A DNA stretch of 64,000 nucleotides. Source: Branchiostoma floridae (Eukaryota > Chordata > Leptocardii > Amphioxiformes > Branchiostomatidae). The DNA is taken from the NCBI RefSeq assembly GCF_000003815.2, contig NC_049980.1, forward strand, positions 9,918,964 through 9,982,963. The letters are read 5' to 3'. Below are positions 1-64,000 of this stretch, in pieces (the first letter of the stretch is position 1; each line of letters opens with the position of its first letter). The notes beneath the pieces were generated by a model. It made no database searches and was not told where the DNA came from. It saw only the letters and a program-made list of their open reading frames with translations. A program made the translations under genes and the position numbers.

Positions 1-3000
1 TACCCAGAGGAACTCAGTGTGATAGTCACAGAGGTGGTGGATGGCTGCCACTTCTGGGGCCAGGTTAATCAGGAGGTTTGTGCAGTGCTTTTAATAGTTG
101 TTGAGAATTAACTAGATACTGCATTACTTCATTTGCATACCGGTAGTTTATATATAGCAGATATTTCAGTGGAAAGTTCTCTCAGACACTGCAGTATTGA
201 AATCACTGTTGTCAAGCTTAGTTGGGCAACCAGAAACTCGGTGATAATTGAAAATAGATCGTGTAAAATCCAATGCAGACCACAATTAACATGTAGCTGT
301 GCATATTAACCGTCCCACCCATGGTGTATAGAGCCTACTATTCTAAGCTGTGCCCTAACTTTGTGCTACCGTACTTATCCCAGGGGAAGAACAACCTGTT
401 AGAACTGCAAGAGCTCCAGAAGGGTCTGAACCAGCTGTGTCCTGCCCCGCCCCTCCCCCCTGGAGACAGGATTGGGGCAGCACCTTTTGAAGGGGATTGG
501 TACAGGTATGGTGCCTCTATACATATAAGCATCCCAGTTCAGGGCATTGTTAGACTTCCTTAGAGTCAGAATATTAGTCTTACTCTTAGGGCTTTGTGCT
601 TTTGACTATCTTGTATTCTGATTACAAACTGCTTTGTACAGTATAGTCTAAAACTTTTTTTCGGAAATGGCCAAAAGTTGATGCACACGCAGATCTCATC
701 CAATTATAATCAGATCAACATGACCTTATGTGCTCATAACACTCAAGTCTTTGTTGTTAAGGACAAACTTCTTTGCCATTGTGTAGAGTGTGGATACAGG
801 AAGAACTCCCAGAAGACCAGCTGCAGATGGTGTTTGTGGACTATGGCAACTCTGCAGTATTACCACGCACAGAGGTTTCACCCCTGCTCATTCCACAGTT
901 TTGGGACCTTCCACCTCAAGCAGTACCCTTTAAACTAGCAGGTTGGTATCTCTGAAGGCATTCAACAATCATAAAGCTTAGTACAATGCTAAACTTTCTT
1001 CCAAGTTCACACAAAAGTGCACATAAATCAAATTTTCAACAACCACTGTCGCCTTCTTCACGATCAATACTAATGACCAATCACTTTAGAATGTAAACTT
1101 GTCAAACATGCCAGGAAGTACTAGGATTACTACCAACACAGATGAGCTTCCATGATAATCATAAAGCATGTCTTGTGTGCATTTGTATTATATATTGTTT
1201 CAAACCTCAGAGTGTTCATTTCTTGGTTCATTTGTTGTCCTGGATTTTAAATCCTTGAATTTTCATCTACAGGACTGAGCTCTGCCACAAGCAATGGACA
1301 TGACAAGCTGAAGGAGATACTGAGCTGGCAAGTGGTCTCAGTGAAGCAAAGTCAGTCCAGAACATGCGAGGTGGGTTCATCGGGATACAACGGTGTATCT
1401 TGGTATAAATTCACGAAACTAAAGGCATTGTAGTAATAGTCTTGAAATAATTGTAGCCATTTTTTTTTCAGTTTTGGTAGTAACGCTAGTTCACCTTTAA
1501 CCATTGTGTAACCTATATCCGTTGCTTTTAAAAACGTGGTATTTGGGGATATCATGTCAACGGACGTTGGTTTAAAATTGCAATATTTTCACTACATTGC
1601 AGCTTAAAACTACCACCTGTCGACTTGATGTGCCTAAGTGCACTGTTCTGAAAAACAACGGATATAGGTTACCCTGCGGATAAAAGGGAACCAGTGTTAC
1701 CTCTTTACTTTGATGTCATGACAATGTGTGTGTGTGTTAACTTTTTGTTTCCTCTGAGAAAACCTCCATTTCACTCTTTAATCCCTGCCAAAATAAATAG
1801 ATTTACAGCACCTTATAATTTGGCTTCATTGCAAACAGGAAAAATGACATATTGCGATGAAATTAACTCTCGATTCTTTAATACATATGTATATATAACA
1901 GTATATTGTTACTTCAACAGCCCCATATTCTAGAAGTGGAGGTTTACATTCCAGATGCCACAGACTCTACATCAGTCAACTCCATGATGAAAAGGGAGAC
2001 ATGTGAAGAGGGTCATTCATTCCCAGAGAAGACTAATAAAGGTGTCACACAAGAAGAACCAAATTGCCACCCCAACATCAGCACGTCTGTGCCAACAGTA
2101 GAAGACAGAACAAGGGAGCACAGTATTTCTAGACAAAGAGCTGAGAAAGCCACTACAGGTAAAACAGGAGGTATAGGAGATATTTTCTCTAACAGCACAA
2201 CTCTAAATCAAGAAAGAAAGCATTCCTCAGAACAGAAAGAAGCTGGCAGAAAGTTTGACAACGAGACATTCCAGCAGAGAAGTGGTGAAAGGAGTCACCA
2301 GAAGTTTCAGTCACCTTTCCTGAGTGAAAAGGAAGAAGCAGTGTTGAGGAGGATAAGTGAAGGTAACCAGAGAGTGTACCACACAGAGATGGGAAGAAGA
2401 CACCAGGAGACACCAGTAGGGCAGCAGCAAAGGTTGATTGGAGGACAGCATAGTACAGTTCAACATCAGCAAGGACTGCTGGGTACACCGATCAACAAAT
2501 ATGCCCCTCAGCTTCTGTTTAAAGGGAAAAGGTTTGCCCTCCTGGCAAAGGTTTCTGAGGTACGCTTCTTCCAACTTACAAGAATGATGGACACAAGCAT
2601 TAGTGTTTCTTACTATATTGTAACAAGACTTAGAGTGGCCTTTGAAGTACATGTACTTAGAATCTACTAGGTTCATGCACTAAAGAAAGCTCTGAACTTA
2701 GCCTACATCAAATTTTCATATCATTGTAATAATATACACGTAGTCTTTCTTTAGGGCTTCACATCTCCTACTCTTCAAAACACAGTAATTTTTTTTTTTT
2801 TACTCAATGGTCACCACGTAACAAGGCCTGAAGGCCACTCAAGGTTACGGGTTACATGATTGGAACTGTAACAGCAACTCTTCGCCCTAGGTCAGAAACA
2901 TCATGATTGAGACCAGCCCAATTGCTCACTATGAGTGAGGACTAACTGACCCAATAGGCAAAGCAGGGGTTACGAGGGCTGTGAGTAATGTTCCCAATGT

Positions 3001-5532
3001 GTGTATTGCTGTTCATGACAGTTGTGTGTGTTTTCTAGGTGGTGACACCAGACCGGTTCTACATCCAGTCTGCAGACAGCCCCCTGCTGAACAAGGTGTC
3101 TCAGAGTCTCCAGGAGGCAGCTAATAAAAGGACAGCACAGGTAGGGAGGAATGTCAGATTGGTTTATACTGGCATCAGTTTGTAGTTGTTCCTGTCTAGA
3201 AGTCTGGACCTTGGGATCTATTGAAATGGCCCATTGGATTTGATACTGTTCAAATTGACAGAATTTATATGAGAGATCTTTCAAATTGATCTCGTCAGTG
3301 TCTTTTGGTCATCTTTATTAAAGAAGTTCTTATAGTATGCTACCTTCAGGCATTTTTCCAGTATACTTGTCTTTATGTTGAGCTTTTATATTTTTGTTAT
3401 ATCTTTTTACAATTAGGAGTTGTCAGATTTGAGGACCCTGTGTTACGAGACTGGTCAGGTGATGTGCACTTACAGTGAGAAACACCACATGTGGAGGAGG
3501 GTGCGCATCGACGGTATTCTGCCAGATATGGTGAGTCTTAACTATACTGTAAAGGAATAGTAACAGTAACAGTATAGTCTTAACTATACTGTGTGATTTT
3601 GCATAGTCAGAATTCATTTGTGAAAAAGAGATTATTTTTGAAAGTAGTGAGAAAATTCAATTGTAATGTAAGATTGACGAAAACGTTTAATATTCAGATA
3701 TGCTTTTAGAAACCTTGATGTCTCTCCTCAGATTAATGTGCAGCATGTGGACTATGGAACCATGGAGCTGACTCAGCTGCACAACCTGTTCCCCCTCCCA
3801 CCTGACATACTGTCCGTCCCCATACTGGCCAGACCAGCGTGCCTTGCCAATACTGCCCCCCTCCCCAAGGATGGCCACTGGACAGAGGGAGCCAACGCCT
3901 TCCTCAAGGGGCTCACAGCCAACAAGGTCAGGAAAGATGTCTCAAACTTACATCTGGAAAAGAGTTCGTCTTAAATCTATATGCATTCATTTATTAGACT
4001 TAAGGGAAATGTAACAGTTTCATTCAGTTCTGCTTCCCCCCCCCCCCCCCCCCCAACTTCTCTAGGTCCTGTTTGCAGAGGTAACTGGAGAACAGGCAGG
4101 GGACAAGCTGGTGGTCACACTGTGGAGCTCCATGGACAAAAAAAACAACCTCTCCCAACAGCTCATGGATCAAAACTATGCGATCTACAGTCAGCCACTT
4201 CCTGTCACACAGATGCCTTCACAGAACCCAAGCTTTACCCAGGGGAAACCACTACCAGTACTTCTGCCTACTCCCCAGCCTCCGCAAATCAGCAACCAGC
4301 CCTTCTTTGATCAACAACCACACTTACCCATCCCACAATATCCACTGTTTACCCCTCATGTCCCTTACCAACATCCTAGGCCAAAACACAGGATGAAGGT
4401 GGGGGAAAGGTTCTCACTACTGGGCAATCAGAAGACACCGGCCCCATCGTTGGGAGGAGAAGGTGCCTTTAAGATAATTGTGAGAGCAGAAGAAGGGAAG
4501 GAAAGAACCACAAGTAGAGGAGAGAAGATTGAGCCTCCTACAGGTCAGTCCTCAGACAGTGCTCAGGGAAGATATGTCAAGGACCACAATTACGGAGCAA
4601 CAGACATGAATGGAAACAAGGGCCCCAGTTTTGCAACAGTGCAGCCCAGTAAGCTTGTTTCACACAATGTCAGAAGCACTGGAAAACAATACCATCCTGG
4701 CAACAGCAATAGAGCAAGCAGGAACAGTGGGAACAAGTTTGGAAAAGGTGGCAGTCCCCTATCTCTTGGTGCACAGAGAAACATCCTGCACCAAATAGTC
4801 GGTGATGTACAGGAGACAAGCAACAAGTCTCAGCCAAACTGTGAGTCTGGACAAGCAAACAAAGTGGAAAAGGAAAGGAGAGACTCTGGTGCCAGCAATA
4901 TATCAACTGAGCTGGAAAACAGGTTGGTGTTCAAATGAAAAAAAAGTATTTCTTCCTTGATAGGGGTGGGTACCTGACTACCGGTACAGAAAATTCAGGT
5001 CCAGGTCCAGGCTGTTTTAGACCAAGTTTGACTGTGGAGACTTGGTAAAAATGACTATAAACTCTTGGACCTTGTTAGCCCCCAAACACTAGAACGCCTG
5101 TCGGTTTAATCTGTCCATTATCTAATCAGTCCAAAGTCTGATGCACTGATTTTTTTCAGGTTGGGTTTTTCTGGACCGGTCCAAGAAGAAAAAAAAAACA
5201 TTTTGTACCGGTACCCAACCCTATTCCTAAATTAGACTCTATTTAGAGTCAACATGTGTAGCATGTTCATTTGGTAACATCAATGTGGCACCATCACAAT
5301 AAGATTGCTGAATGTTTGTTTGCACAGATTGCAGCAGCTTGTTCAGGTAGACACAGGCGAGGGGAGAGAAAATGCAGAAAACTGCACACCAACTAGTGAG
5401 GGTCTACCTACAAACCAGCACCAGAAGGGTCTGCTCGAGAGCGAGTTCAAGGGATGTTTGCCGACCACCAGTGGAATGTCAGCAGTTGACATCCTAACCT
5501 CCCAGCTTATTGAACTGCACACAGAGGAGTAG
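1..5532 (+). CDS. Tudor domain-containing protein (TDRD5/TDRD7-like), 3' part
   Basis: Ten in-phase exons run off the left edge: 1-75, 384-505, 787-941, 1273-1370, 1921-2559, 3039-3140, 3417-3530, 3732-3926, 4066-4922 and 5328-5532. Together they give about 853 codons and a TAG stop. Two extended Tudor domains are visible. The first has SVIVTEVVDGCHFWGQV, then GDWYR and VFVDYGNSAVLPRTEV. The second has KVSEVVTPDRFYIQSADS, then MWRRVRIDG and VQHVDYGTMELTQL. The VDYG(N/T) strand and the aromatic residues before it are typical of Tudor modules that bind methylated arginine on Piwi-type proteins in germ granules; that role is family knowledge, not seen here. A Ser/Gln/Lys-rich linker of about 200 residues separates the Tudors, and a disordered polar tail of about 300 residues follows. 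LOTUS domains, which would settle TDRD5 versus TDRD7, would lie left of the window. The first Tudor lacks the usual Cys before its GDWYR segment (GAAPFEGDW). Confidence 0.85.
1471..1703. repeat. MITE, TAACCTATATCCGTTG family, copy 1
   Basis: Inner inverted repeats read TAACCTATATCCGTTG (from about 1508) and CAACGGATATAGGTTA (to about 1671). Weaker outer complementarity is GTAACGCTAGTTC against the complement of GAACCAGTGTTAC. The element sits in a Tudor-gene intron. A second copy is at 21562-21806. There is no coding capacity, so it is a non-autonomous DNA transposon. Confidence 0.7.
2789..2985. repeat. Interspersed repeat shared with 30479-31010
   Basis: The segment runs from TTTTTACTCAATGGTCACC through AACATCATGATTGAG to GCAGGGGTTACGA. 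The same order of blocks occurs at 30479-31010, where unrelated sequence splits them. It lies in a Tudor-gene intron. The class is not recognised. Confidence 0.55.
4962..5226. repeat. Inverted-repeat element in a Tudor-gene intron
   Basis: The left arm contains ATAGGGGTGGGTACCTGACT and CCGGTACA. The right arm has TGTACCGGTACCCAACCCTA, its near-complement. The element fills most of the last intron and has no ORF. It is most likely a MITE. Confidence 0.55.
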
Positions 5533-6822: not shown

Positions 6823-9800
6823 TCATGATGAAAGCCCACTGCTGAAGAGTGCATACATGTAGAGAGGGGTCACAATGTTGTCCACCTGGGAGGTGAAGGC
6901 TTCCAGTAATGACGTCAGACACACGGCTGTCACTATGGGGATCAAGTTGGCTGTGAACCCTGGCTGGATCCCTACAAACAAATAAAGCATAATTTGAAAA
7001 AGATGCCTGAATACATGTACAATGTACATGTAGGTCAAATTGTATAGTTACTGTTCTACCATGATATAAGAATCTTTTAGCCTGAAAACGTAAGATCCCA
7101 AAGTTTAACACAGGCATATTTTCTGCATAAAAAGTTTTTATATGTCACTTTGACACAATCATGTTGGCATTGGCCATGAGATACACAGTAATCACATACA
7201 AACTTCTCCACTCACCAAGTAAACTCAGTGTGCAACAGGCTGCCAATTGTGCTACCACAGCAGCCAGGGTGCCCTCTACTGTTTTCTTTGTACCTGTAAG
7301 AAAAAAAAGAGCTTCAATATTACAGTTACAGCAGTCTCTACATCAGGTATACAACCTTTTCTCTAAATGTATGCATAGGAAAAAAATGTATTTCTAAAAA
7401 TCACTAGATGATTACACAGTGATTTAGAAATTCTGATATGGTGAAGGATGTAGATATCCAGCATACATTTTATACTGAATAACAAAGCATGACTATACAT
7501 GTATGCAAGTTTTGACCCTTTAAATCACAATACCAGCTATATCCTTGTTGAAATCTTGGCAAATCATCAGAAATTACTCTAAATGCAGAAAAAAAATTGT
7601 AGTGTGATGCCAAACCTTGAAGTTACTCATATGCACACTTGTAAACATTACAGTAAAGTATATCTAATGATCACAATACCTGGCCATCTGTGTCTGCCCA
7701 GCTTTGATCCAATGACAGAGGCAGCAGTGTCCCCAACTCCCAAGGAGATGACACCACTGTACATCGCCAGCTCTGTACCTAGAACAATAACTTTGCTTTA
7801 CAATATCGGGGTACGGATACTACTGGCATTACGGACAAACGGTACTAACGCTACTGGGGGTACAGACACTACTGCTGGTACAGACACTACTGCGGGTAGG
7901 AACACTACTGGTGGTATGGACACTACTGGGGCTACGGACACTACTGGGGCTACGGACACTACTGGGGCTACGGATCTAACGAAGGTAAGTCTCAACCTAA
8001 CGCATGCCACAATGCTGATGTTGGGGGTGGCTAAATAATCACGTTTCCTAGCTGCCCTTTTCCGTTCAAGGGCAGTTTGATAGTCTGGTATCAAGACCTA
8101 CTATTAGATAGCTGTCAAATCTCTGCAAATTTATCATAGCTGCAGAATCATGTCTTCCTGCAAAAATATTTCCATTAGAGGATGTGGAGATTTGGCAGCT
8201 ATAAAGTTTAATACATGTGTAGTGTGTAGGTTTGGATAACTGGGTAGCAGTTTGATACAGGAAAGGGCAACTGCAACAAGGTGAACCATCTATCTTCTCC
8301 AAACATCTAGCCTTGTACATTGAGAAAGTGTGATGAGGTAAATCTGAACCATACTAAGAGAATGTCTTGTTATGTTTTTTATGCAAACATCTTACTTAAG
8401 CAACAGCTCAACCTACTCTATCTATTAGATTACCTATTGTGTATGCAGAAGGGTACAGCCATAGAGGCAGGGAACAGCCCAGCAGAAGGTAGATGTGGGT
8501 GAGGATGGCCACTCCTCTGTCCTTCTCATCAACAAACACACGCAGGGATGTGTGTAAGGATTCACCAAAGGGTTGGATTCTGTACATCCGCACATACTGT
8601 GGAACACAAACAACAGGCATTGATCACACCCATAACAAGATTGAAGTAATTCAAAGAGCAGAGCCACAAAAACAAGTTTTCCACTCTCAAAATAGAAGAC
8701 TATAGTATACATGTAGGTTATTCTGAACTCAAAGATATGACTACTACTTAAGGTAAATATATGCATGTTCAACTTGTGACAACTAGTTTTCAGGGCACAT
8801 GGTAAGTCACTGATTGTCAGTTGTTATTCCATAAAGTCAGCTGTTTACCAGTTGTTTATACATGTACCTGGAGGCAGGATAAGCTGATCTGCTACAAAGC
8901 ATCTTGTTCACACTTAATGATGACACATACACATGTATATGAGTCTTCTTTGCTTTTGGCTATGGAAATAAGATCTTTCAAACATAGCCTGGGTGCCATC
9001 CTCCAAAGTAACCATTGTCTCAATATTTTCCCTTGCTATCTGTGGTTAGCAAGTGAAGATTGAGCCAGCAGTTATTACAGAGAATGGCACCCAGGCTATC
9101 TAAAACATGCTTACTTCCAGCAGAATAAAGGCTCCCAAAGCTGCTACAGATCCTATGTACAGCAGCTGGGGATTCCGCATCAGTCCAGGTAAGAAAACTG
9201 CTATGGCGATCAGATGGAAATACTTCCTCACAATGGTGGAACCTGCACCTGCAGGGTTGGTCCTGTTCTGCCTGGCAACTGTTGCTATGGCAACCAATGT
9301 CATCACACTCCAGTAGCCAATCAGAGAGATCTAGAAAAGAGATGACCAGAAGAGCTGGAACTTTGAAGTACACCTTTTTTTATCAAAAGGGAACATTGAT
9401 TTTAGAAAAAGCACATTGTACATTGACCGATTGCATTCAGTAGGTCGTGAGTTTGATCCTCGGCCGAGTCATACCAAAGACTTTAAAAATGGTACATGCT
9501 GCTCTCTCTGCTTAGCACTAAGCATTCAGGAAAGAATATGGAAGTTAAACACACACCACTACCAGTGGACTTAAGACTCCTACTGTAGTGATTGCACAAA
9601 GTTGTGTGGCTCAGGGCTACTGATATGGAGATGGGTGCCGCCCTATGTGCCATCAAGCACAGGAAGGACTTTGACATTGTTCATGTACAAGTAACTGATA
9701 GAGAACAGGCAGAGATGGTCTTGGGTTAAGCTTCTTGAAACAGCCTTCAGCTATACTTACACTGCTGTCACAAGCCAGTATGAAGCCCATGAGCCACAGG

Positions 9801-29400: not shown

Positions 29401-32400
29401 ATACGATCTTCGGACGTACTTCGCGATCGCAGGAAGGTCGGCTGATTGTAAGATCTTAAGATGGTCTTGCGTATTTTTCGCCCAAAATCTGTTCCCCTCA
29501 CATATAAGCGAGCCTCGTGCGATCGACGGTGAATAAATCTATGATAATGAACCTCCCATGACCTCTTGCACGCGGACAAGGGAACACAAAACGTTCCTCA
29601 AAAAAGGCAAGAGATCAATAAATGTTGCTTATTTTGTTATCGGAATCTTTTTAATCAATGAATGGAATGCGCGGGCATAATAGAAATGACACAAGAAAGG
29701 AAAGTGTTTCACAAAGCCAGCCTACATACTGCCAAAGGGGCCACAATGTTAGAATTACCCTCACATTCCCAGAAATTCAATATTTGTAAACAATCGGAAG
29801 TCGGGTGAACGTCGCCCGAACGTCACCCGACTAACGGGCGTTCGCCATCCGATTTGCGTTCGATGATTAATAACTATGTCTGTGCTCGCCTATCGGTCTT
29901 CAATCGTTGGGTTGACGCAAGACTATTGACCGATACCCTTGCGAGGTACGCACGATTTGCACGCACGATCTGCGACTCGGTAACGAGCTCTGCGATCTCG
30001 GAGATCTCCTGCGACTTGTCGCTTATGTTAAGAACATGTTTCGCTGCACCGTGACCGTCGTAAGACTCCTGAAAATTGCCGGCGATCCCTAAAAATCGCA
30101 AGATTATCGTGAGAACACCGGACATCTTACTCACGAAAATGTCATTTAGAGCTCGTAAACTAGTCTTCCGATCGAATCGCGCCTAATGTGAGGCGGGTAT
30201 AATGAGTCTGAGTATTACTAAGCAATGAGACTGAGTCACAAAAAGGAACTGTCGCCAAAGCTAATTGTCATTAATCTGAAATTGTTCCATGTTACCTTTA
30301 TTGCTATGTTGACATGATGAGTCAGTGTGCCGGGTTTGTGAATAAGCTGAGAGGTGGTAAAGGTGTAGTCAGCTGCGAACAGCTGTACGGGCGGGACCAG
30401 CAGCATGAAGGGGTCGCTGTCCGTGCTGTCGGCGGCACCGGTCTTACTATGGGGGAATCGGACGAGTGAAGGTCACACTTTTTTACTCAATGGTTACCAC
30501 GTAACAAGACCTGAAGGTCATTTCAAGGTGTGACCCGAAGACTGGGATACATATTTACAGCATACGTCGATGTAGGTTAGACATCCAGGTAATAAGATAC
30601 GCCAAAAATAGTTACTCAAGCAACTGGATATGGTTTTGAAACGGTCAGACGTTTCGGATAGAATCCACTATCCTTCGTCAGTGACACTGAAGAGATCTGG
30701 AAGAAACAGGTCTTTTATACTCTAACTTTGAATGAAGACAATTTCAGATGTCCAATAGGAAAGGTTGTGAGACAATTCAGACTGACGGACTGAAGACAAT
30801 TTGGATTCCAAAGAAAACAAAGCTAAGCCAAAGTCAAGCTGAAGACAATTTGGATTTCAAAGGATTTACAGCATATTTACAGCATATATTACAGCATATA
30901 TTTTCTCCCTAGGTCAAAAACATCATGATTGAGTCCAGCTCAATTGCTACACTAAGAGTGAGGCCTAACTGACACATTAGGCGAGGCAGGGGTTACGAAA
31001 GTTGCTCGGGAAAGCTCCCTACCAGACTTTTATATTGACGTTTAGATCCATGATCAGCAATTGAATTCACTTAAGGTAGATGACGAACTAACTTGCGCGC
31101 GCGCGTGGGCACACACACGCACGCACGCACGCACTCACGCACCTACGCACGCACGCACCCCCCCCACACACACACCCACCCCCACCCCCACACACACTTC
31201 GATATTGAAAAAAATGTGCAAAAAGTGAGTGCGTATGTGTGTGGCATGGCCATAACAGTCATCCTTACCTATACTGCATAAGCATGACGGGTTCAGTGGC
31301 AGAGACATGTAGGTATTCGTCCGAACCAGCTCCAAAGTTCCAGAAATCCCCGGCGTTGAGAGTGGTCGTGCTTTTTCCTGTGGCGTCGACCTAAAGTACC
31401 ACAAATGTATTATATTAACTTTATTGACTACCGGTATTTCAAAAGAAATCAGGAAGCTAGTGGTTTTTACCTTTATCTTGATGTGAAGGAATTTTATCGC
31501 ACGTAACCAATGTTTTTCAATAACCGACGTTTCGGCGGAGCGTCTGCCAAATTTCGTCGGAACAGTACTGATTTGTCTTACTTCCAACTGCAACTAGGTG
31601 TCGCTGCAGTGAGACTGATTCGGTCTTAAACGGGACTGATGAGTTTGTGCTTGAGCTTGTTTTCTCGTATTTTACTCTTTCAAGGATCCCATCGCATAAT
31701 GGGGAAACTATAAATAACGCAGGGGTGGGGGCAATATCATTACCATGGCAACTTAGACGGGGTACATTACGCATGCGCCACTTATGCGTTCTGTTGTCCT
31801 CAAAGGTAGCTCTATCTGGTCACGCCATGGTATGACGTCATAATGCGCCCGTGAAGTATTTTGAGGGTCTTGTGGAAAGGGCGACATGCTGTACTTTGCT
31901 TTGGTCCTATTTTGGCAAAGCAGTAAAGAAAGATTATATCTTTTTGTTTTCTAAACGTTGATATATGATGACATTAGGCTGAAATTATATGCGGTGATTT
32001 AAAGGTGACGGTTGTTATTAGAAACTCTGAGCCCAGAACCTCAAGGTAGACATTGTATGGAAATGCCATATATCTTTCTGTCAGATTGTTTGCAGTTTTC
32101 GGATATCTCGATAGAAGCCGCTGGTGCACGGTGTTTGACTTCGTCTACTATAATCATTCTACACATGTGCAAAGCAATGTGTCACCCTGTCGTTGAGCTG
32201 TGCACCCGTGTAACGTGATACGCCAGTTAAATCCTTGAATAGTTTGTACTGGCGTAGCTGGAACTCTGTGGTAAATACTTGCTATTTGTGCAGTCCCCAA
32301 GAGACGCTAAATGGCTGCAATTGGGATGACCTACGCAAGTCTTTCTCTGTTCATGGGACTGACGTCCTTGACACAAATCATCGGCCTTTCACCCCCCGAT

Positions 32401-35400
32401 CAGCCACCGTCATGGCCTTTGACTTTCTCGGTAAGTTTTCACGAAGAGCATCGGGTATGGATCACCCCCCTCGCCAGTAAAGCCCCCTTCACACGAGAGC
32501 ACGAATGAGCCGGAATGCCGTCCGAATGACCTTTTTTTCCTATACGTGGCAATTCCTCGCAATTCGTACTGCATTCTTAACATTCGTACTGCATTCCAGA
32601 TATTCGTCCCCGTTCTTTTGGCTGGCTCGAAAGTTTTTGACATGTTAAAAACTGTCGAGGTGCATTCGAAGTGGAGAAATATCGAATGGCATTCATAGTG
32701 GATTCTAAGTGCATTCTGCCTATTCTAACTGCAGTCTGACCGCATTCTACGGCATTCCAACATTGTTCGAAACATTCTTATCTCATTCGATGGAGAACCG
32801 AAATGGCAAGCCACTTCGAATCCTGCCCGAATGTGGCCGAAAGAATATCTCGAATGCAGTGAGAATACACTACGAATTCACAGGAACAGGAAAGAATTTT
32901 CATTCTGATAGCATTCTGGCTCATTCCTTCTCGTGTGAAGGGGATTTAAGGCCCATTTGGAATTCCCACCCGAATGACCCCGAATGTGGCACGAATTTTG
33001 CAAATACTTCATTCCGGCTGGTTCGGCTTGATTCCTGCTGATTCGGTTTCAGTGTGAAGGCCCTATAACGCCGGCGCCTGGCACTACGACTTCAGTATCA
33101 AGAGAGCAAGATTCGACCATTTGCAGGGCCAGATAGACAATTTTTGCCACGGTCGCGGTCTAGAGTTGAAGGACTCGCGCGGCGACTGCCATCTTCTGTT
33201 CAACACCACGGACATGTACGTGCACTACCCCCGGGAAGAGAAGTGTTGCCGTGCCTGTGGGGTCGCCGAGGGGTGCACCGTACTGAAGCCGACTTGGATG
33301 GCGGGGGCTACGTACCTCGGGACCGAAAACATCAACGGAACGGTGTGCCATGGCTGGGAGGCGGACGGGGCCGCCGCAAGGGACAGGTGCGTCTGAAATC
33401 ATCTTTCTTTTTTCCCTATAGCTACAACTTGAATGAAAGAAGAATTTTCTTCCCCATCGATCTGATGCATACTATATATAATTGTTGGACCACCGTTGAG
33501 GCGTCATCGTCATTGCATACAATGTCTGTGTGACGCCGTGGTCACATTCGCCGTAGTCACTTTTTAAGCAGGCTGTGACAGACAACCACTGACAAAGGTC
33601 TCAAACAGCATTTTCAGTATTACAAGAAGACAGCTGAATTTTGTACAATACGTAACGTGTTATGTATACATGCAAGTCTGAACTAACCCAATTATGCCCG
33701 GAGTTTGAGATCTTATACGACGATCGTACAACAACTTGTGTGACAACGCCCTCGGCCAACGGCTGTTAGCAAAGATTCACCACAATATTTAGCAAGTACG
33801 GTTGACTCTAACATTGTGTCTGGTAGCTTGTTTAACGTTGTTACACGATGTTGACAAAAAATTGCTGATCGAGTGACACCCAGAACCGGTAGCAACTTAC
33901 TGAGGGTCACCTTTATGAGGTTTATGTACACTGGCGCCACACTTACCGCCCCTTTGGGCAAATACTGCAATGCAGGAAACGCTGACGAAGGGGTTAAAGA
34001 TCTAGGACAGGTCAGTCAGTAAGCCAACATAGTGCGTGGTCGTCGTACTCGGTATAGTTAGTAGCTATAGGTCTTTTTGTGGACTGATAGCGCAAGTTGA
34101 TCAAACAGGTGAAGCATACCGAGCCTAACATCCCCAAAACAGTAAATCACATTACGCTATAATCTTTCGTCCTGTAATATATCAAATGCCAACATATTAT
34201 TTTTCTGTTGAAATCTGTATTAGTGTCTGCATAGCGAGTGCAGCTGATTTCAATACACAGGACGACCTGAAATTACATTTTTTTTCATTGCATGGAGAAG
34301 ATTTAGTAAAGTAGATGATGATCTATTATGTAGGTATGGACAGCGGGGTGCAGCTGCATGTTAGTAACTTTTTCCTCTCCCCTTCCATCTTTCCCGCTCC
34401 AGGTGGTACCAAGCAGAAGACGGCATCCCCTGTCGGTACTCGGAGACGATCAAATTCTGGCCGCACTCAAGTCACAACATCACCTTCAACATGAGGTCCT
34501 ACAGCCGCAACCCCATCCCGAATAGCGTCTTCAACATACCCACATACTGCCACACAAGATGTCCATTTCCCTGGCGGCATTTTCCCATAGAATAGAAGGG
34601 AAACACTATAGCACTTAGAGACTTGAAATGGTTTCATTTCTGTCCGGATAAATTTCTCTGGTTAACAACGTTTTCCACACGTAACCAATGCACGTATGTC
34701 ACCTGCCGACGTTTCGGTGGTTCAGCTGCCACTTTACCAGAATACTAGTAACACGGACTTGTTGTACTTCGCACTGTAGCTAGGTGGCGCTGTAAGTGAG
34801 AGGGATGCGATCCCAAACGTGACTGAGCTTGGGGATAAAGAAGACCTATGGGTAATAACGCAAAGAGGAGCGGGGGCAATATCATTACCATGGCAACTTA
34901 GACCGGATATAATACGCATGCGCTGCTTATACGTATCATTGTAATGATGTTGTTTCTGGTTTGCTCCCTTGCATTGATTATACCCATAGTTCCCCGTTTG
35001 TCCCATCATACCGTGTCAAATTTCTATAACAATATCAGCATCCACAGAGAGTGTGACCTTTATCGAAGGCACTTCAAATTATCGCCCCCCCCCCAAGGTT
35101 TAACTATGCTGTAAATCGCACAAGGCAGCTGTAAAATGAGAAAATATATGCCCTACATCTATAGAGTGATAACAATATATAGGAAAACGGATACTAATGT
35201 CATTATAAGGTCAAAGAAGGAGATATGAAAGAACAAAAATTAAAACTGTTATTTAGTATACCATACTCTGTGTGTTTAGTAATTTGTTCAACCTTCGTGA
35301 AAACTTTTTGTTTTGGCCAAACTGTTTTTTTTTGCACGCTCGCACCAACGTTGGGGTTTGCAGAGGATGTTGCCATCCATCCATATAATCAAATCAACAT

Positions 35401-44780: not shown

Positions 44781-44889
44781 GTCGTGTTGACCCGGAAGCA
44801 CAGTCTCCCAGTTGATTCACACAGACGGGGGTGGCTTAGGTGGGGGCCGAACCGCTGGATGATGATGTACAGGAGCATCGGACGGGTGT

Positions 44890-46745
44890 GGACGCTCTCC
44901 CTTCAGCTGCTGTGTTGCGCCTGCTGATGGAGGGGACGGTTGGTACTCTCCCTTTAGCTGCTGTGAGTCACCTTCTGCTGATGGAAGTGAAGGCTGGTTC
45001 TCTCCCTTCAGCTGTTGTGTGTCACCTTCTGCTGATGGAAGTGAAGGCTGGTTCTCTCCCTTCAGCTGCTGTGTGTCACCTTCTGCTGATGGAAGTGAAG
45101 GCTGGTTCTCTCCCCTCAGCTGTTGTGTGTCACCTTCTGCTGATGGAGGAGAAGGCTGGTACTCTCCCTTCAGCTGTTGTGTGTCACCTTCTGCTGATGG
45201 AGGAGAAGGCTGGTACTCTCCCTTCAGCTGTTGTGTGTCACCTTCTGCTGATGGAGGAGAAGGCTGGTACTCTCCCTTCAGCTGTTGTGTGTCACCTTCT
45301 GCTGATGGAAGTGAAGGCTGGTTCTCTCCCTTCAGCTGTTGTGTGTCACCTTCTGCTGATGGAGGGGAAGGCTGGTTCTCCCCGTTCAGCTGTTGTGTGT
45401 CACCTTCTGCTGATGGAGGAGAAGGCTGGTACTCTCCCTTCAGCTGCTGTGTGTCACCTTCTGCTGATTGAAGTGAAGGCTGGTTCTCCCCGTTCAGCTG
45501 TTGTGTGTCACCTTCTGCTGATGGAGGAGAAGGCTGGTTCTCCCCGTTCAGCTGTTGTGTGTCACCTTCTGCTGATGGAGGGGAAGGCTGGTTCTCCCCG
45601 TTCAGCTGTTGTGTGTCACCTTCTGCTGATGGAGGAGAAGGCTGGTACTCTCCCTTCAGCTGCTGTGTGTCACCTTCTGCTGATGGAAGTGAAGGCTGGT
45701 TCTCTCCCTTCAGCTGCGATGTGTCACCTGCTGATGGAAGTGAAGGCTGGTTCTCTCCCTTCAGCTGTTGTGTGTCACCTTCTGCTGATGGAAGTGAAGG
45801 CTGGTTCTCTCCCTTCAGCTGTTGTGTGTCACCTTCTGCTGATGGAGGGGAAGGCTGGTTCTCCCCGTTCAGCTGTTGTGTGTCACCTTCTGCTGATGGA
45901 GGAGAAGGCTGGTACTCTCCCTTTAGCTGTTGTGTGTCACCTTCTGCTGATGGAAGTGAAGGCTGGTACTCTCCCTTCAGCTGTTGTGTGTCACCTTCTG
46001 CTGATGGAAGTGAAGGCTGGTACTCTCCCTTCAGCTGTTGTGTGTCACCTTCTGCTGATGGAAGTGAAGGCTGGTTCTCTCTCTTCAGCTGCTGTGTGTC
46101 ACCTTCTGCTGATGGAAGTGAAGGCTGGTTCTCTCCCTTCAGCTGTTGTGTGTCACCTGCTGATGGAAGTGAAGGCTGGTTCTCTCCCTTCAGCTGTTGT
46201 GTGTCACCTTCTGCTGATGGAAGTGAAGGCTGGTTCTCTCCCTTCAGCTGCTGTGTGTCACCTGCTTATGGAGGTGATGACTGGTAATCTCCCTTCAGCT
46301 GCTGTGTGTCACCTTCTGCTGATGGAAGTGAAGGTTGGTACTCTCCCTTCAGCTGTTGTGTGTCACCTTCTGCTGATGGAGGAGAAGGCTGGTACTCTCC
46401 CTTCAGCTGCTGTCTTTCACCTTCTGCTGATGGAAGTGAAGGCTGGTTCTCTCCCCTCAGCTGTTGTGTGTCACCTTCTGCTGATGGAAGTGAAGGCTGG
46501 TTCTCTCCCCTCAGCTGTTGTGTGTCACCTTCTGCTGATGGAAGTGAAGGTTGGTACTCTCCCTTTAGCTGTTGTGTGTCACCTTCTGCTGATGGAAGTG
46601 AAGGCTGGTACTCTCCCTCCAGCTGCTGTGTGTCACCTTCTGCTGATGGAAGTGAAGGCTGGTTCTCCCCGTTCAGCTGTTGTGTGTCACCTTCTGCTGA
46701 TGGAGGAGAAGGCTGGTACTCTCCCTTCAGCTGCTGTGTGTGGTA
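44890..46745. repeat. 54-bp minisatellite, about 34 units
   Basis: The unit includes TTCTGCTGATGGAAGTGAAG, GCTGGTTCTCTCCCTTCAGC and TGTTGTGTGTCACC. 54 is a multiple of three, so + strand frames stay open: one for 679 codons (44840-46879, 18-residue repeat around VCHLLLMEVKAGSLPSAV) and another for 150-260 codons per block (SPSADGSEGWFSPFSCCV). A few units are 51 bases long, still in frame. I do not claim a gene; the array is antisense to the LTR element. Confidence 0.85.
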
Positions 46746-46835
46746 CTCTCCCTCATGTGCAGTGGAAGCCTCCGATGTTGGAGGAGAGAGTTGGTACCCT
46801 ACCTCTACCTGTGCAGTGGCAGCTTCTGCTGATGG

Positions 46836-47717
46836 TTATGAAAACTGGTAGTCTAAGTCTAACTCCACAGGTGTTGTGAGAGGCTGGTGCTTGTTCTTCT
46901 CTAGTATGGTAGGTGATCTTGCCTTTGTTGGCACTTCATTCATAGTAGGGTTGGGCATAGAGGTAGCATGGAGTATGTGCATGATCTTGGTTGACTGATG
47001 AGGTGTCATTCGGGTATCGGTTACTAGTCTGGGGCATGGCACGTTGTTGGTAAAGACACTGTGTATGCATGGCGTCGATTGCGTTGTGGATGGAGAATAG
47101 TTCGAGGTGTATCCATCAGAAAGTTGAATCTGATGTTTACTGAAGTTGATGATTAAACTGTTGGATTCCAAGAAAGAAGTTCCGGCTACAATAGGTTCGG
47201 CGAGGTCGTCAACCACGAAAGCATCAAATTTCAGAGGGACTTTCTCCCTGTAGAACGTAGTAGAGCACTCACCTATGACGGAGAGTCGCCGCCCATCTGC
47301 TTGGATTGACTTGAGATTTGCTGCGTGTTGCGATTTACGGACGGGTACATTCAGACGCTGTGCTTCGGCAGCTCGGATCAAGCTTGTTTCGGCTCCCGAC
47401 TTTAAGTTGATCCTGATTGCGTGCCCCTCATGGAAGGCATCCAAGCGAGGTAAAGCACGAACGCTGACTCCCCTCGCCTGCGCACGTGGGGAATCCCCGA
47501 CGTTGTCAGGACGTTGGTGGGGAGGGCGAGGGTACGATTTCTCTTCGCCTGACAAGAAAGGACAAGTGCTAAGGACGTGGTTGACATATGGGACAGATCT
47601 TCTTAGGTCCTCGTTTCCTCGGGTGTGATCTTGATGGACCCGGGGTAGAAAAGTGTGGAAGTTGAGTCGGTGTGGAACACCATTCATAAGGTCCCGGATG
47701 TTGACTCGCCATGACAT
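46836..47717 (-). CDS. Retropepsin-like ORF of the LTR element, catalytic Asp absent
   Basis: A 293-codon ORF begins MSWRVNIRDL just inside the 5' LTR and ends in a stop next to the 54-bp array. The N-terminal third is basic and gag-like but has no zinc knuckle. The middle shows a retropepsin fold pattern: LKSGAETSLI where active enzymes have (L)D(S/T)GA, then ADGRRLSVIGE, FDAFVVDDL and PIVAGTSFLESNSLII. The catalytic Asp position is Lys, so it should not be proteolytic. Reverse transcriptase is missing. It may be a retained, non-catalytic gag-protease fragment. Confidence 0.65.
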   Translation of the reverse strand: MSWRVNIRDLMNGVPHRLNFHTFLPRVHQDHTRGNEDLRRSVPYVNHVLSTCPFLSGEEKSYPRPPHQRPDNVGDSPRAQARGVSVRALPRLDAFHEGHAIRINLKSGAETSLIRAAEAQRLNVPVRKSQHAANLKSIQADGRRLSVIGECSTTFYREKVPLKFDAFVVDDLAEPIVAGTSFLESNSLIINFSKHQIQLSDGYTSNYSPSTTQSTPCIHSVFTNNVPCPRLVTDTRMTPHQSTKIMHILHATSMPNPTMNEVPTKARSPTILEKNKHQPLTTPVELDLDYQFS

Positions 47718-58642: not shown

Positions 58643-61600
58643 ATGGCGGGTGAGCTGCGTTTTGATGGTCGAGTCGTTCTCATCACGGGCGCCGGGAACG
58701 GTAAGTCGGAAATATCAGGGAATTTTCATAATTTCTACTGATCAAACATCAACACAAGTTCAAGTTGAGCTGTTAGAATGGTTGTCCTCGCAAGTGTGGC
58801 CTGGTGAAAGGCGCGGAGTCGGTCCAACTTGCACCTGCTGCACCTCGAAAAAGTTGGAGCAAAGTTCACTGACACTACGGTTAATCACGCGACTTATATA
58901 TAACGTTAGTAGCTAGTAAGCTACACGTTTGCTACTCGTGTTTTCCTTAACTAATCTCTGTGGATTTACTGTGCTGTTCAATCGTGTAATATGATACATT
59001 TAGATACACAGATAGCATATATGTAAAAATGCCAAAGCGGTTGTCGCACATGTCGTTCACATGCTCAGAAAAAGTTTCAGATTCGTTTACAGAGGTGGGT
59101 GGGTACTTTTATGATTACATCAAATCAGAAAGGAAAGCTGTGTGTGTTTATTCAGTTACCAAAAATGTATGCATATTTTGTTGCAGACAAAAGATATCGT
59201 ATTTGTGTTATGTATTGCGCATTCACCACTTTTTAACAAGTCTTTTTTCCCATGATGATTATGGTAGAAAGCCTCAGGAAAGGTCAATGACCTAAAGGGC
59301 ATCAAACCTTTGTCCTTTGTGTAACAATCAATCTACTGCATATGGGCAAATACTACTAGTAGAATGTGATATGTTGAAGTACCAGCAAGGCAGTACTATT
59401 TTTTGTGGCTTTTACAATATAACTGTTCCTGTATATACAAATGTTTTAAGATCACAATTTGAATGAAGTCATCTGAATTCAATATAAAGAAAGTCTTACT
59501 TTTATATTTATACATACTAATGTCTGGCCTTTCCTTTCTATATGCAGGCATTGGTAGAGACTATGCTCTCGCCTTTGCAGAGAGGGGCGCTTCTGTTGTT
59601 GGTGAGTACTTGTATCTCTTTCTGACCTGCTGTGTTTTCTTCGATTCTTCCAGATATTCAATTTTTTTATAATTGTTTATTGTTTATTTGCACATAGATG
59701 TAATACATGAAGTGAATCAATTATATTGTTCAGATCATATGGTTTTCTTTCCTCACAGTGAATGACCTAGGAGGAAGCTTCACAGGGGAGGGTGCGAGTT
59801 CCCGCCCAGCTGATGTGGTGGTGGAAGAGATCAAGGCAAAGGGAGGGAAGGCCGTGGCCAACTATGGTGAGGGGAATCATTGCAGTTTTAGTGAAATGGC
59901 ATGGAATACATTTTTTAAGCTTATGCCTATGAATTGAGGTAGCCATTTCTAAGGGACACAAATAAAACTTTTTCAAGAACAGTGTTGTAACTAATGTAAG
60001 ATCATATTGTTGTCTCCATAGACTCCGTGGAGGATGGGGCCAAGGTGGTGCAGACTGCTCTGGACCATTTTGGTAGAATTGGTAAGGACTTTCAGGACAT
60101 TTATACATGTATACAACATTGCTTTGTATGTGAGCCTTGCACTCATTTTTTCTAGAATTAGAATCTAGCATCTTTTTTGGTTTGTTTCCTTGTAGAAGTA
60201 AAATGCAATACATGCATCTCCAAAGAACCTGTATTTTTACGTTACGCAACATTTGTTTTAATCTTTTGATAATGATAGCCCAGCATGTGCATCGTAACCC
60301 ATTTCTAAAATTCCTAATGAAACCAGTACTGTTTTATTGTAGCAGAGACTACTCTTCCAACCTATTCTCTTAATGTCTTACAGATGTAGTGATCAACAAT
60401 GCAGGGTGGGTACAGTTTTCTCATGAAGTCTAGAACACAGTTCTCTTTATCAAAATTTGTCAAATTTCATTCAGCGTAATCTTTAATTCAGTTTACTACT
60501 TGAATGTAGAGAGCAGCGTTGATGTCCCTGAGTGTCAAACAAGCAAGCTTAAATGATCCTTACCTAGCAAAGATTATAGATTATTTCATATAAAACATAT
60601 ATTCAGCATTAAATGCTTACGCTGCCTTACAACAGAAATGTTCTTGTTTTCCACAGTATCCTTCGTGACAAGTCATTTGCAAGGATCAGTGACACAGACT
60701 GGGGTAAGTGCACCATATTTCAAGACAGCAGTTTTATACATATCAATGCCTTTCAGAACTGAAGCAGTTGTTACTGATACGTTCATAGATTTATAATCAT
60801 AGACGTTAACTCTCTTGTTCTCCCCAGACTTGATCCACAGAGTCCACCTGAGAGGGTCCTTCATGGTGACCAGGGCTGCCTGGGAGCACATGAAGAAACA
60901 GAAATTTGGCAGGTGAGACTGTCACAAATGATCAATGAAATAAGCAATAGTGTTTGTGCCCCCTTTTGTGCCCATACACTCAGTATGGTCCGTACCCAAA
61001 GTAGTGCCCGTAGCCCCAGTAATCTTCGAACCCCCAGTAGTGTCCGTCCCCAAGTAGTGCCCATTCTCCAAGCAGTTTCTATACCCCCAGCAGTGTCCGT
61101 ACCCCCAGTAGTGTCCGTATCCCCAGTACTGTCCTGTACAGTAATGTCCTTACCCCCAATTAGTGTCCATACCCCCAGTAGTGTCTGTACCCCCAGTAGT
61201 GTCCGTACCCCCAGTAGTGTCCGTTTCCCCAGTAGTGTCCGTACTCCCAGTAGTGTCCTGTACAGTAATGTCCTTACCCCCTAGTAGTGTCAATACCCCC
61301 AGTAGTGTCCGTACCCCCAGTACTGCCTGTAGCCCCATATTGTCCACACCCCCAGTAGATATATTTCAGCAGGGACATATGATGACAGATGTTTTTTGTT
61401 TGTTTATTTGTTTTCAGGATCATCATGACAACCTCCAGCTCTGGTATCTATGGTAACTTTGGTCAGGCCAACTACAGTGCAGGTGAGTCAACAATGGGAA
61501 TGGGAAAGTGGTTGTCTAAGTTTCCTAATCAGGGACTTTATTGGGAACATTTCATAACATAGTGCAACTTTTAGAATTGTACAGTTTCTGAACAGCTTAT

Positions 61601-64000
61601 TGATCTGGTGAGACTTAGTGGAGGTATGATATTATCACAAGTAAAGATAGTTTTATTTTTTATTTAAAAATACCACACATTTAGTTCAGAGACAAAAACT
61701 GTTGATGATCTGTGTTCTGATTGTTTTTTTTTTATTTCAACAGCAAAGCTTGGCCTTCTTGGGCTTGCCAACACCCTGAGGTGGAAGGAAAGAAGTACNN
61801 NNNNNNNNNNNNNNNNNNNNNNNNNNNNNNNNNNNNNNNNNNNNNNNNNNNNNNNNNNNNNNNNNNNNNNNNNNNNNNNNNNNNNNNNNNNNNNNNNNNN
61901 NNNNNNNNNNNNNNNNNNNNNNNNNNNNNNNNNNNNNNNNNNNNNNNNNNNNNNNNNNNNNNNNNNNNNNNNNNNNNNNNNNNNNNNNNNNNNNNNNNNN
62001 NNNNNNNNNNNNNNNNNNNNNNNNNNNNNNNNNNNNNNNNNNNNNNNNNNNNNNNNNNNNNNNNNNNNNNNNNNNNNNNNNNNNNNNNNNNNNNNNNNNN
62101 NNNNNNNNNNNNNNNNNNNNNNNNNNNNNNNNNNNNNNNNNNNNNNNNNNNNNNNNNNNNNNNNNNNNNNNNNNNNNNNNNNNNNNNNNNNNNNNNNNNN
62201 NNNNNNNNNNNNNNNNNNNNNNNNNNNNNNNNNNNNNNNNNNNNNNNNNNNNNNNNNNNNNNNNNNNNNNNNNNNNNNNNNNNNNNNNNNNNNNNNNNNN
62301 NNNNNNNNNNNNNNNNNNNNNNNNNNNNNNNNNNNNNNNNNNNNNNNNNNNNNNNNNNNNNNNNNNNNNNNNNNNNNNNNNNNNNNNNNNNNNNNNNNNN
62401 NNNNNNNNNNNNNNNNNNNNNNNNNNNNNNNNNNNNNNNNNNNNNNNNNNNNNNNNNNNNNNNNNNNNNNNNNNNNNNNNNNNNNNNNNNNNNNNNNNNN
62501 NNNNNNNNNNNNNNNNNNNNNNNNNNNNNNNNNNNNNNNNNNNNNNNNNNNNNNNNNNNNNNNNNNNNNNNNNNNNNNNNNNNNNNNNNNNNNNNNNNNN
62601 NNNNNNNNNNNNNNNNNNNNNNNNNNNNNNNNNNNNNNNNNNNNNNNNNNNNNNNNNNNNNNNNNNNNNNNNNNNNNNNNNNNNNNNNNNNNNNNNNNNN
62701 NNNNNNNNNNNNNNNNNNNNNNNNNNNNNNGCCCATTGAGGATGTCACCCAGTGTTTTTTAATAGGGCTTTGTAGATACCGAAGAGTAGCAGGCCTACTG
62801 GGAAGCCGATTTCGCCTAGCCCGTACAAGCTTTCCGGTGTATATTCCTTTCCCGGCATATATTCCTTTCCCGGCATATTCCGGGTTAAAAATCGGGAATC
62901 GACCTATTAGTACCGCCTTACCCCCCCCCCCCCCCAAAAAAAAAAATTGCCAAGCTTCCCAGAGAGGCCGGTGAAGGAGGCTACACTTTGTAAGAGTTTA
63001 CTGAAACTGAAGTCAATTGTGCAGATATTTGCAAAGCAGTTGATTTCATTGTTCTTTTGTACTGTATGCACGTACAAATTGTCTTGAGTACATTTATGAT
63101 CTGATTCAGTACTGTTCAGTACAAATAATGCCTGGCTGCCACAAGTCTGCCTTTAGTTTATAATCTCATGTACATGTAGATGATCTTTTTATCCTCAATG
63201 AAACACGTCAAATGACATTGTAGAGCCTGACTCATTTCCCTGATAATATTCCATGTACAAATGTACATCCAATGTATTTTCCCACAGAGGTGCTGGACAT
63301 GCTGAACCCGAGCTACATCGCCCCACTGGTGATGTACCTGTGCCACGAGAGTTGTCAGGAGAATGGAGGCCTGTTTGAAGTGGGAGGGGGGTGGATCTCA
63401 AAGTGTACGTCATCTTATTACCATTTTCAGTACAGTAACTGCATGGGCTACTTTGTTGTCACTTTTCTGTACTACACTAAAGAGCTCATTTTTTCTTCTG
63501 GTGCTAAAGGACCTACTCAGGCCTGTCTGATAAAGTAATTAAATCCTCCTGTGGTTCCCACAGCTTTCTGTGTGTACATTGTATATGTAGTGGCAGTGCC
63601 CATTTCCCTCTGATCACACAGGCTACTATCATTAGGGCTAGTCTTCTTATAGTGGAGTGGAAGGCAAATGCTGCACCCCTAGACCATTGCTCCAGTGAAC
63701 TGCATGTATAATTTATTAGGGGAGGGAAATGTGCCAAGTTGAAAAAAAATGTTCCCTTCTTAAGGTGCATAACTGTGTAAAATTCTTCTTTGCATGACAG
63801 TGAGATGGCAGAGGACCCAGGGTGCCATGGTGGGCAGGCCTAACAAGACCATGACTCCAGAGGATGGTATGTACATGACAATGTATACGTACGCTAGTTG
63901 CTGTGTGTATGGCAACATGGCTGTATATGTAGTTGCATTACAAATCTAACTCTATATCCCGACCTTGTGTAATGGCCAATCCATAATCAAACAACACATC
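58643..64000 (+). CDS. HSD17B4: Peroxisomal D-bifunctional protein (17-beta-HSD type 4), 5' part
   Basis: The protein catalyses hydration and (3R)-hydroxyacyl-CoA dehydrogenation in peroxisomal beta-oxidation; the window holds its N-terminal dehydrogenase domain. Exons: 58643-58700, 59548-59601, 59759-59866, 60022-60081, 60384-60405, 60657-60703, 60828-60912, 61418-61482, 61744-61798 (into the gap), 63288-63404 and 63801-63866, continuing to the right. Motifs are all present: [19 protein letters not shown] with GIGR (NAD-binding), [74 protein letters not shown] (catalytic Ser, Tyr, Lys), [20 protein letters not shown] and [12 protein letters not shown]. The hydratase and SCP2 domains lie outside. 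Next to the gap the frame reads TLRWKERS where VEGKKY is expected one base over, probably a contig-end error. Confidence 0.95.
60985..61365. repeat. 18-bp minisatellite in an HSD17B4 intron
   Basis: About 20 units of AGTAGTGTCCGTACCCCC, some with a CTGTACAGTAATGTCCTT variant. The complement is the same unit as the DOLK intron array at 7800-7985. The array fills most of the intron between exons ending 60912 and starting 61418. Confidence 0.85.
61799..62730. other. Assembly gap (932 Ns)
   Basis: A run of unresolved bases interrupts HSD17B4 within the exon starting at 61744. At least one missing exon (after YSAAK and before [10 protein letters not shown]) must lie inside or nearby. Confidence 0.98.
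62731..63287. other. HSD17B4 intron right of the gap
   Basis: It has two tandem TATTCCTTTCCCGGCATA units at about 62840-62880 and a poly-C/poly-A junction near 62920. No exon is recognised. Confidence 0.5.

Follow-up and report, generated by a model that had tools for sequence, protein, structure and literature searches.

A stretch of 64,000 bp from the genome of the lancelet Branchiostoma floridae (contig NC_049980.1, positions 9,918,964 to 9,982,963 of the forward strand), hereafter the window, contains a two-exon gene (window positions 32311-34595) whose first coding exon is interrupted by a miniature inverted-repeat transposable element (MITE) of the PIF/Harbinger type. The insert belongs to a repeat family, breaks the reading frame and is absent from seven paralogous exons. 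A fairly recent insertion of this element made one member of a duplicated gene pair a likely null allele, a reading to which we assign a probability of about 0.87; the allele that is represented in the assembly is most likely null.

The 585-bp element is flanked on both sides by TAA (Table 1). When 588 bp, that is, the element together with one TAA, are skipped, exon 1 comprises 488 nt (32311-33386), the following intron ends with an AG acceptor at 34402, and the intact frame encodes 226 residues followed by a stop (227 codons), running to 34595. Aside from the element, all 226 codons are open, with neither another stop nor a frameshift in the gene. A single copy of the locus was recovered when the genome was searched with both coding parts. 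The sequence-only reading had proposed a TAA-flanked insertion that splits a coding exon, with an empty allele shorter by about 588 bp, a stop within the insert at 32508 and an exact frame of 227 codons upon removal, and all of these claims hold, the exact empty site being corroborated by both the frame and the seven uninterrupted paralogous exons. The range of 32311-33386 given there covers exon 1 with its insert, but position 33386 is only the end of exon 1, and the 227 codons extend to the end of the second exon.

Table 1. Features of the interrupted gene and of the inserted element (window coordinates)
Feature	Position	Strand	Basis or remark
Coding exon 1, left part (codons 1-55, plus bases 1-2 of codon 56)	32311..32477	+	open frame
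Exonic GTAAGT, donor-like decoy	32431..32436	+	same GTAAGT inside the uninterrupted C5 exon
Left target site duplication, TAA	32478..32480	+	flank comparison
MITE, 585 bp, non-autonomous, PIF/Harbinger-like	32481..33065	.	many-copy family
Left terminal inverted repeat	32481..32494	+	9/14 bases match right end
Internal long fold-back (main palindrome)	32484..32943	.	outer 15-bp arms match perfectly
First in-frame stop	32506..32508	+	inside element
Right terminal inverted repeat	33052..33065	-	9/14 bases match left end
Right target site duplication, TAA	33066..33068	+	flank comparison
Coding exon 1, right part, to GT donor at 33387	33069..33386	+	97% protein identity to C5 over 105 residues
Coding exon 2 with stop	34403..34595	+	80% protein identity on C5; frame

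The empty site is preserved in the paralogues of the window gene (the latter denoted C2). A genome search with the 105 residues to the right of the insert yielded nine matches including the gene itself: the closest on C5 (97% identity), with C9 and C14 each contributing a pair (66 and 64% on C9, 62 and 57% on C14), and three weaker C9 pieces that belong to two genes. The search with exon 2 yielded eight matches, one of which, on C8 (69% identity over 45 residues), has no counterpart matching exon 1. Among the retrieved loci, the element is missing from all seven paralogous exons that cover the insertion point (C5, C9a, C9b, C14a, C14b and two in C9c), and sequence homologous to it was found at this point in none of these family members. 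The residues across the point read PLAR-NAGAWHYDF in C5 and PISR-NAGAWYYDF in C14a (for the latter gene, the reading covered the first two coding pieces and stopped just short of the exon 2 codons); the motif N-A-G-A-W follows the point in C5, C14a and C14b, and N-E-G-T-W in C9b. The length at the point varies, with two codons fewer in C9a and one codon more in the C9c exons. Over the entire exon 1, protein identity to the C5 paralogue is 90%, with lower values in the part left of the insert. Because the DNA similarity to C5 extends to the upstream, intron and downstream regions (three exon-including blocks at 72, 84 and 76% identity, and an additional 36-bp intron piece at 94%), the C5 copy is a duplicate at the DNA level and not a retrocopy.

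The members of the family differ in where this exon is split. In the C14 paralogues (L061, reverse complement 2242-3675, and L060, reverse complement 1507-2254), an intron that is absent from C2, C5, C9a and C9b lies downstream of the insertion point by about 14 codons, and in the two C9c paralogues (L062, 3229-3589 and 5705-6133), an intron is located elsewhere, about 28 codons downstream. A fold-back of about 354 bp occupies part of the C14b intron, beginning 5 bp behind its start, and a weaker one is present in the intron of C14a. We considered and rejected the possibility that the intron of C14b was made by a MITE: some stretches of the intron, from the right edge of the fold-back onward, match C14a, so that the intron looks older than the fold-back.

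The inserted element shows the features of a PIF/Harbinger (Tourist-like) MITE, namely, a TWA (TAA or TTA) duplication, terminal inverted repeats, a short homogeneous length and many copies. By these marks, it can be classified as such, in line with the Harbinger-like assignment made from the sequence alone. The ends of the element are AGCCCCCTTCACAC ... GTGTGAAGGCCCTA; among the 14 outermost bases, 9 match between the ends, with the first six weak, and CCTTCACAC is common to both ends within the imperfect inverted repeat. About 120 bp at the right lie outside the main palindrome, and the element as a whole folds strongly upon itself (z of -7.5). The element contains no transposase gene, its longest wholly internal stop-to-stop frame (32709-33041), which was not compared with protein families, spanning 110 aa. 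The family includes 39 other near full-length places at 91-95% identity, with 590-597 bp between the same ends, as well as one further place at 85% identity that adjoins one of the 39 (40 scored of the 1197 first-look candidates). The case is built on a single assembly, in which misassembly or merging of haplotypes might conceivably have placed the element in the exon; however, the copy is full-length with its two ends preserved, its 3-bp duplication is matched and it differs privately from the other copies compared, which makes such an artefact extremely improbable.

The insertion can be dated, roughly, from the divergence of the element. This copy groups with two others (on C3 and C14) in a small subfamily that has 21 states in common versus the main group. 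It carries 11 private substitutions (1.9% of the 585 bp) and one 9-bp deletion; the C3 and C14 copies carry 9 and 12 private substitutions, respectively. The window gene and its C5 paralogue differ by a synonymous divergence (dS) of 0.283 and a non-synonymous divergence (dN) of 0.054. Comparison of the 1.9% with half of dS, the share of each lineage, places the insertion within roughly the final 13% of the branch that leads from the C5 duplication to this gene, so that the insertion proves recent, as originally proposed, in relation to the gene. At mutation rates of 3e-9 to 1e-8 per generation with one-year generations (PMC7417228), 1.9% would correspond to roughly 2-6 million years. In Branchiostoma belcheri, heterozygosity is given as about 2% (PMC7417228), and the allelic difference in single-nucleotide polymorphisms as 4.39% (PMC4284660). 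The age of the insertion is therefore similar to ordinary allele divergence, and the insertion could be either segregating or fixed; it is plausible that it is polymorphic in the population and heterozygous in individuals.

The most straightforward scenario is that a non-autonomous Harbinger-type MITE inserted at a TAA in the first coding exon and duplicated this trinucleotide, presumably by cut-and-paste transposition; the ends of the element and the duplication suggest mobilisation by a Harbinger transposase. In a transcript that retains the element, the frame stops after 65 codons, 878 nt upstream of the junction between exons 1 and 2. As a rule, a premature stop far upstream of an exon junction leads to decay of the transcript. 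Hence the message that keeps the element should be degraded or would give only an N-terminal stub. The uninterrupted near-duplicate on C5 may buffer the effect and make the loss tolerable.

This outcome would be averted if the element functioned as a new, introner-like intron that is spliced out either alone or with some of the flanking exon, such that the protein is still made, and a comparable case is mentioned for amphioxus, in which the MITE LanceletTn-2 is reported to reside in a gained intron of the PRHOXNB gene (PMC5802833). We enumerated 881 donor-acceptor pairs, with scores from crude splice matrices, and found that 47 of these maintain the frame to the true stop. However, not one of the 47 combines a donor within 15 bases of the left end with an acceptor within 20 bases of the right end, none removes the element alone, and none has non-negative scores at both sites. 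The best pair, from the exonic GTAAGT at 32431 (score 4.7) to the AG at 33126 (-0.8), would give 190 residues, at the cost of 36 residues, of which W, Y, D, R, F, D and H are invariant; for comparison, the genuine splice sites score 5.1 (donor of exon 1) and 6.1 (acceptor of exon 2). Furthermore, this donor-like GTAAGT is also present inside the unbroken C5 exon. Rescue of the gene by splicing accordingly appears unlikely on these scores, and we consider the origin of a new intron from this element to be quite improbable.

Overall, the dN/dS ratio of the window gene versus C5 is 0.19, which is indicative of purifying selection, but the parts of the gene differ: right of the insert, there are 17 synonymous and 4 non-synonymous differences (dN/dS 0.05), compared to 6 and 12, respectively, left of it (dN/dS 0.60); exon 2 shows 11.5 of each (dN/dS 0.215). 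Polarised changes in the left part number 6 non-synonymous and 2 synonymous in C2, and 4 and 0 in C5. Given that non-synonymous changes occur in both lineages, the insert does not account for the excess; some of the excess falls in the presumed signal peptide, which was identified by eye. Across the gene, the polarised counts, which take in no good C14b exon 2 data, are 11 non-synonymous and 8 synonymous changes in C2 versus 9 and 14 in C5, with 11 non-synonymous and 9 synonymous changes left without lineage assignment, and the two lineages do not differ (Fisher p 0.35). Under a competing scenario, the gene was already a pseudogene, or evolved under little constraint, by the time of the insertion, so that nothing important was broken. 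The high ratio left of the insert and the existence of the near-duplicate on C5 are compatible with this possibility, which nevertheless seems unlikely in view of the strong conservation right of the insert, the open state of the 226 codons outside the element and the similarity of the polarised changes in C2 and C5.

Several observations weigh against a clean loss of a constrained gene through a typical Harbinger insertion. The left part, with its dN/dS of 0.60, departs significantly from the right one (Fisher p 0.004), and such changes occur in both lineages, so that constraint on a portion of the gene may have been weak anyway. The complete lack of an additional stop or frameshift has a probability of about 0.19 under free drift since the insertion (with assumed rates of nonsense mutations and indels), a mild hint of either a younger insertion or some remaining use. 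Finally, a matched 3-bp duplication is missing in 14 of the 51 other copies of the family in the survey described below. The selection figures are compatible both with and without some remaining function. We still favor a recent insertion that most likely inactivated the gene.

The flanks of the family copies show a peculiar pattern. We surveyed 59 loci (39 from the first search and 20 of the 22 new places from the second search), of which 52 had both ends and 51 had distinct flanks (7 partial loci and 1 with duplicate flanks were dropped). A perfect 3-bp duplication is present in 25 of the first 39 loci, and the 3-bp halves are identical in 37 of the 51 copies (36 TWA and 1 TGA). Ten others have TWA on both sides but with differing centre bases (TAA on one side, TTA on the other), including L012, L015, L021, L022, L031, L039 and L047, and the remaining 4 show other flank states. 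Thus, of the 46 copies flanked by TWA at either end, 10 have a mismatched centre base, an excess far beyond the prediction from copy age (binomial P of 3e-11 if an expectation of 1% per copy is assumed, and of 9e-7 if it is 3%). Separately, the base six positions left of the duplication is C in 33 of the 51 copies. Among the papers listed in searches of the open-access literature, none named mismatched Harbinger target duplications or the present insertion.

The closest known systems include the Tourist-like PIF/Harbinger MITEs such as rice mPing, which also have a 3-bp, mostly TWA duplication, a short body and many copies. Perfect excision is reported for 109 of 110 events in a yeast reporter, mPing-ADE2 (PMC2836001), and, as in that reporter, the coding frame here is exactly regained upon removal of the element and one TAA. 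By analogy, the break might be reversible, with a transposase removing the element together with one TAA and the gene operating as an on/off switch in the population; the centre-base mismatches would mean that elements of the family take the TWA overhang of their donor site with them and have it joined to the new target. We view this proposal as a long shot; the overhang-carrying step is not described in the superfamily literature consulted. Unlike mPing, the present family comes from an animal, its outermost inverted repeat is poor, it includes a long internal fold-back followed by about 120 bp at the right, no transposase is tied to it, and centre-base mismatches occur in about a fifth of the surveyed copies.

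Harbinger transposons are reported to be present in high copy number in amphioxus (PMC9179366), and the present element shares superfamily and host with them, the likeness being one of description, not of sequence. In B. belcheri, 36,859 indels of 300-10,000 bp have been reported, about 65-77% of which were ascribed to transposable elements (PMC4284660); the present case is similar in that it is a sub-kilobase insertion of about the age of allele divergence but differs in that it lies in a coding exon and is known from one assembly. LanceletTn-2, again likened by description and not by sequence, is another MITE within an amphioxus gene, but in contrast to its intron, no workable splice sites were found at the present element.

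The host protein belongs to a small family and starts with a signal-peptide-like segment, as judged by eye. Neither the joined protein nor any of the five proteins of alignment A1 matched a Pfam family at E-values up to 10, and a profile search matched no chain in the Protein Data Bank (PDB). An ependymin-related identity, suggested by eye from the pattern of cysteines and of the C terminus, is supported by neither Pfam nor PDB. Three cysteines are conserved in the ependymin-related proteins, the first of them close to the N terminus at alignment position 23 (PMC6280359); the host protein of the window contains 10 cysteines, the first at residue 83. A sub-threshold resemblance of the exon 2 piece to the Pfam spermine synthase domain (E 0.075) was put down to chance, as was a single PDB match (E 0.97).

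Elsewhere in the window, a unit of 54 bp recurs about 34 times (44895-46741) within the region 44817-46879, where each strand carries a long stop-free frame (minus strand, 482 aa; plus strand, 679 aa). Positions 61799-62730 are a run of N, which produces several of the long stop-free frames around it. Two arrays of an 18-bp unit, at 7851-7974 and 60988-61358, are mutual reverse complements (CTACTGGGGGTACGGACA, GTCCGTACCCCCAGTAGT) located 53 kb apart.

Taken by itself, this locus is a fairly ordinary new instance of a MITE breaking a duplicated gene. It provides a clean, datable MITE in a coding exon of one member of a duplicate pair, with the empty site preserved in the paralogues, and lancelet population reads that already exist, such as those of the 10 B. 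floridae samples named in PMC7417228, would allow the insertion to be typed. The mismatched target duplications of the family may be relevant to the way in which Harbinger elements are joined to DNA.

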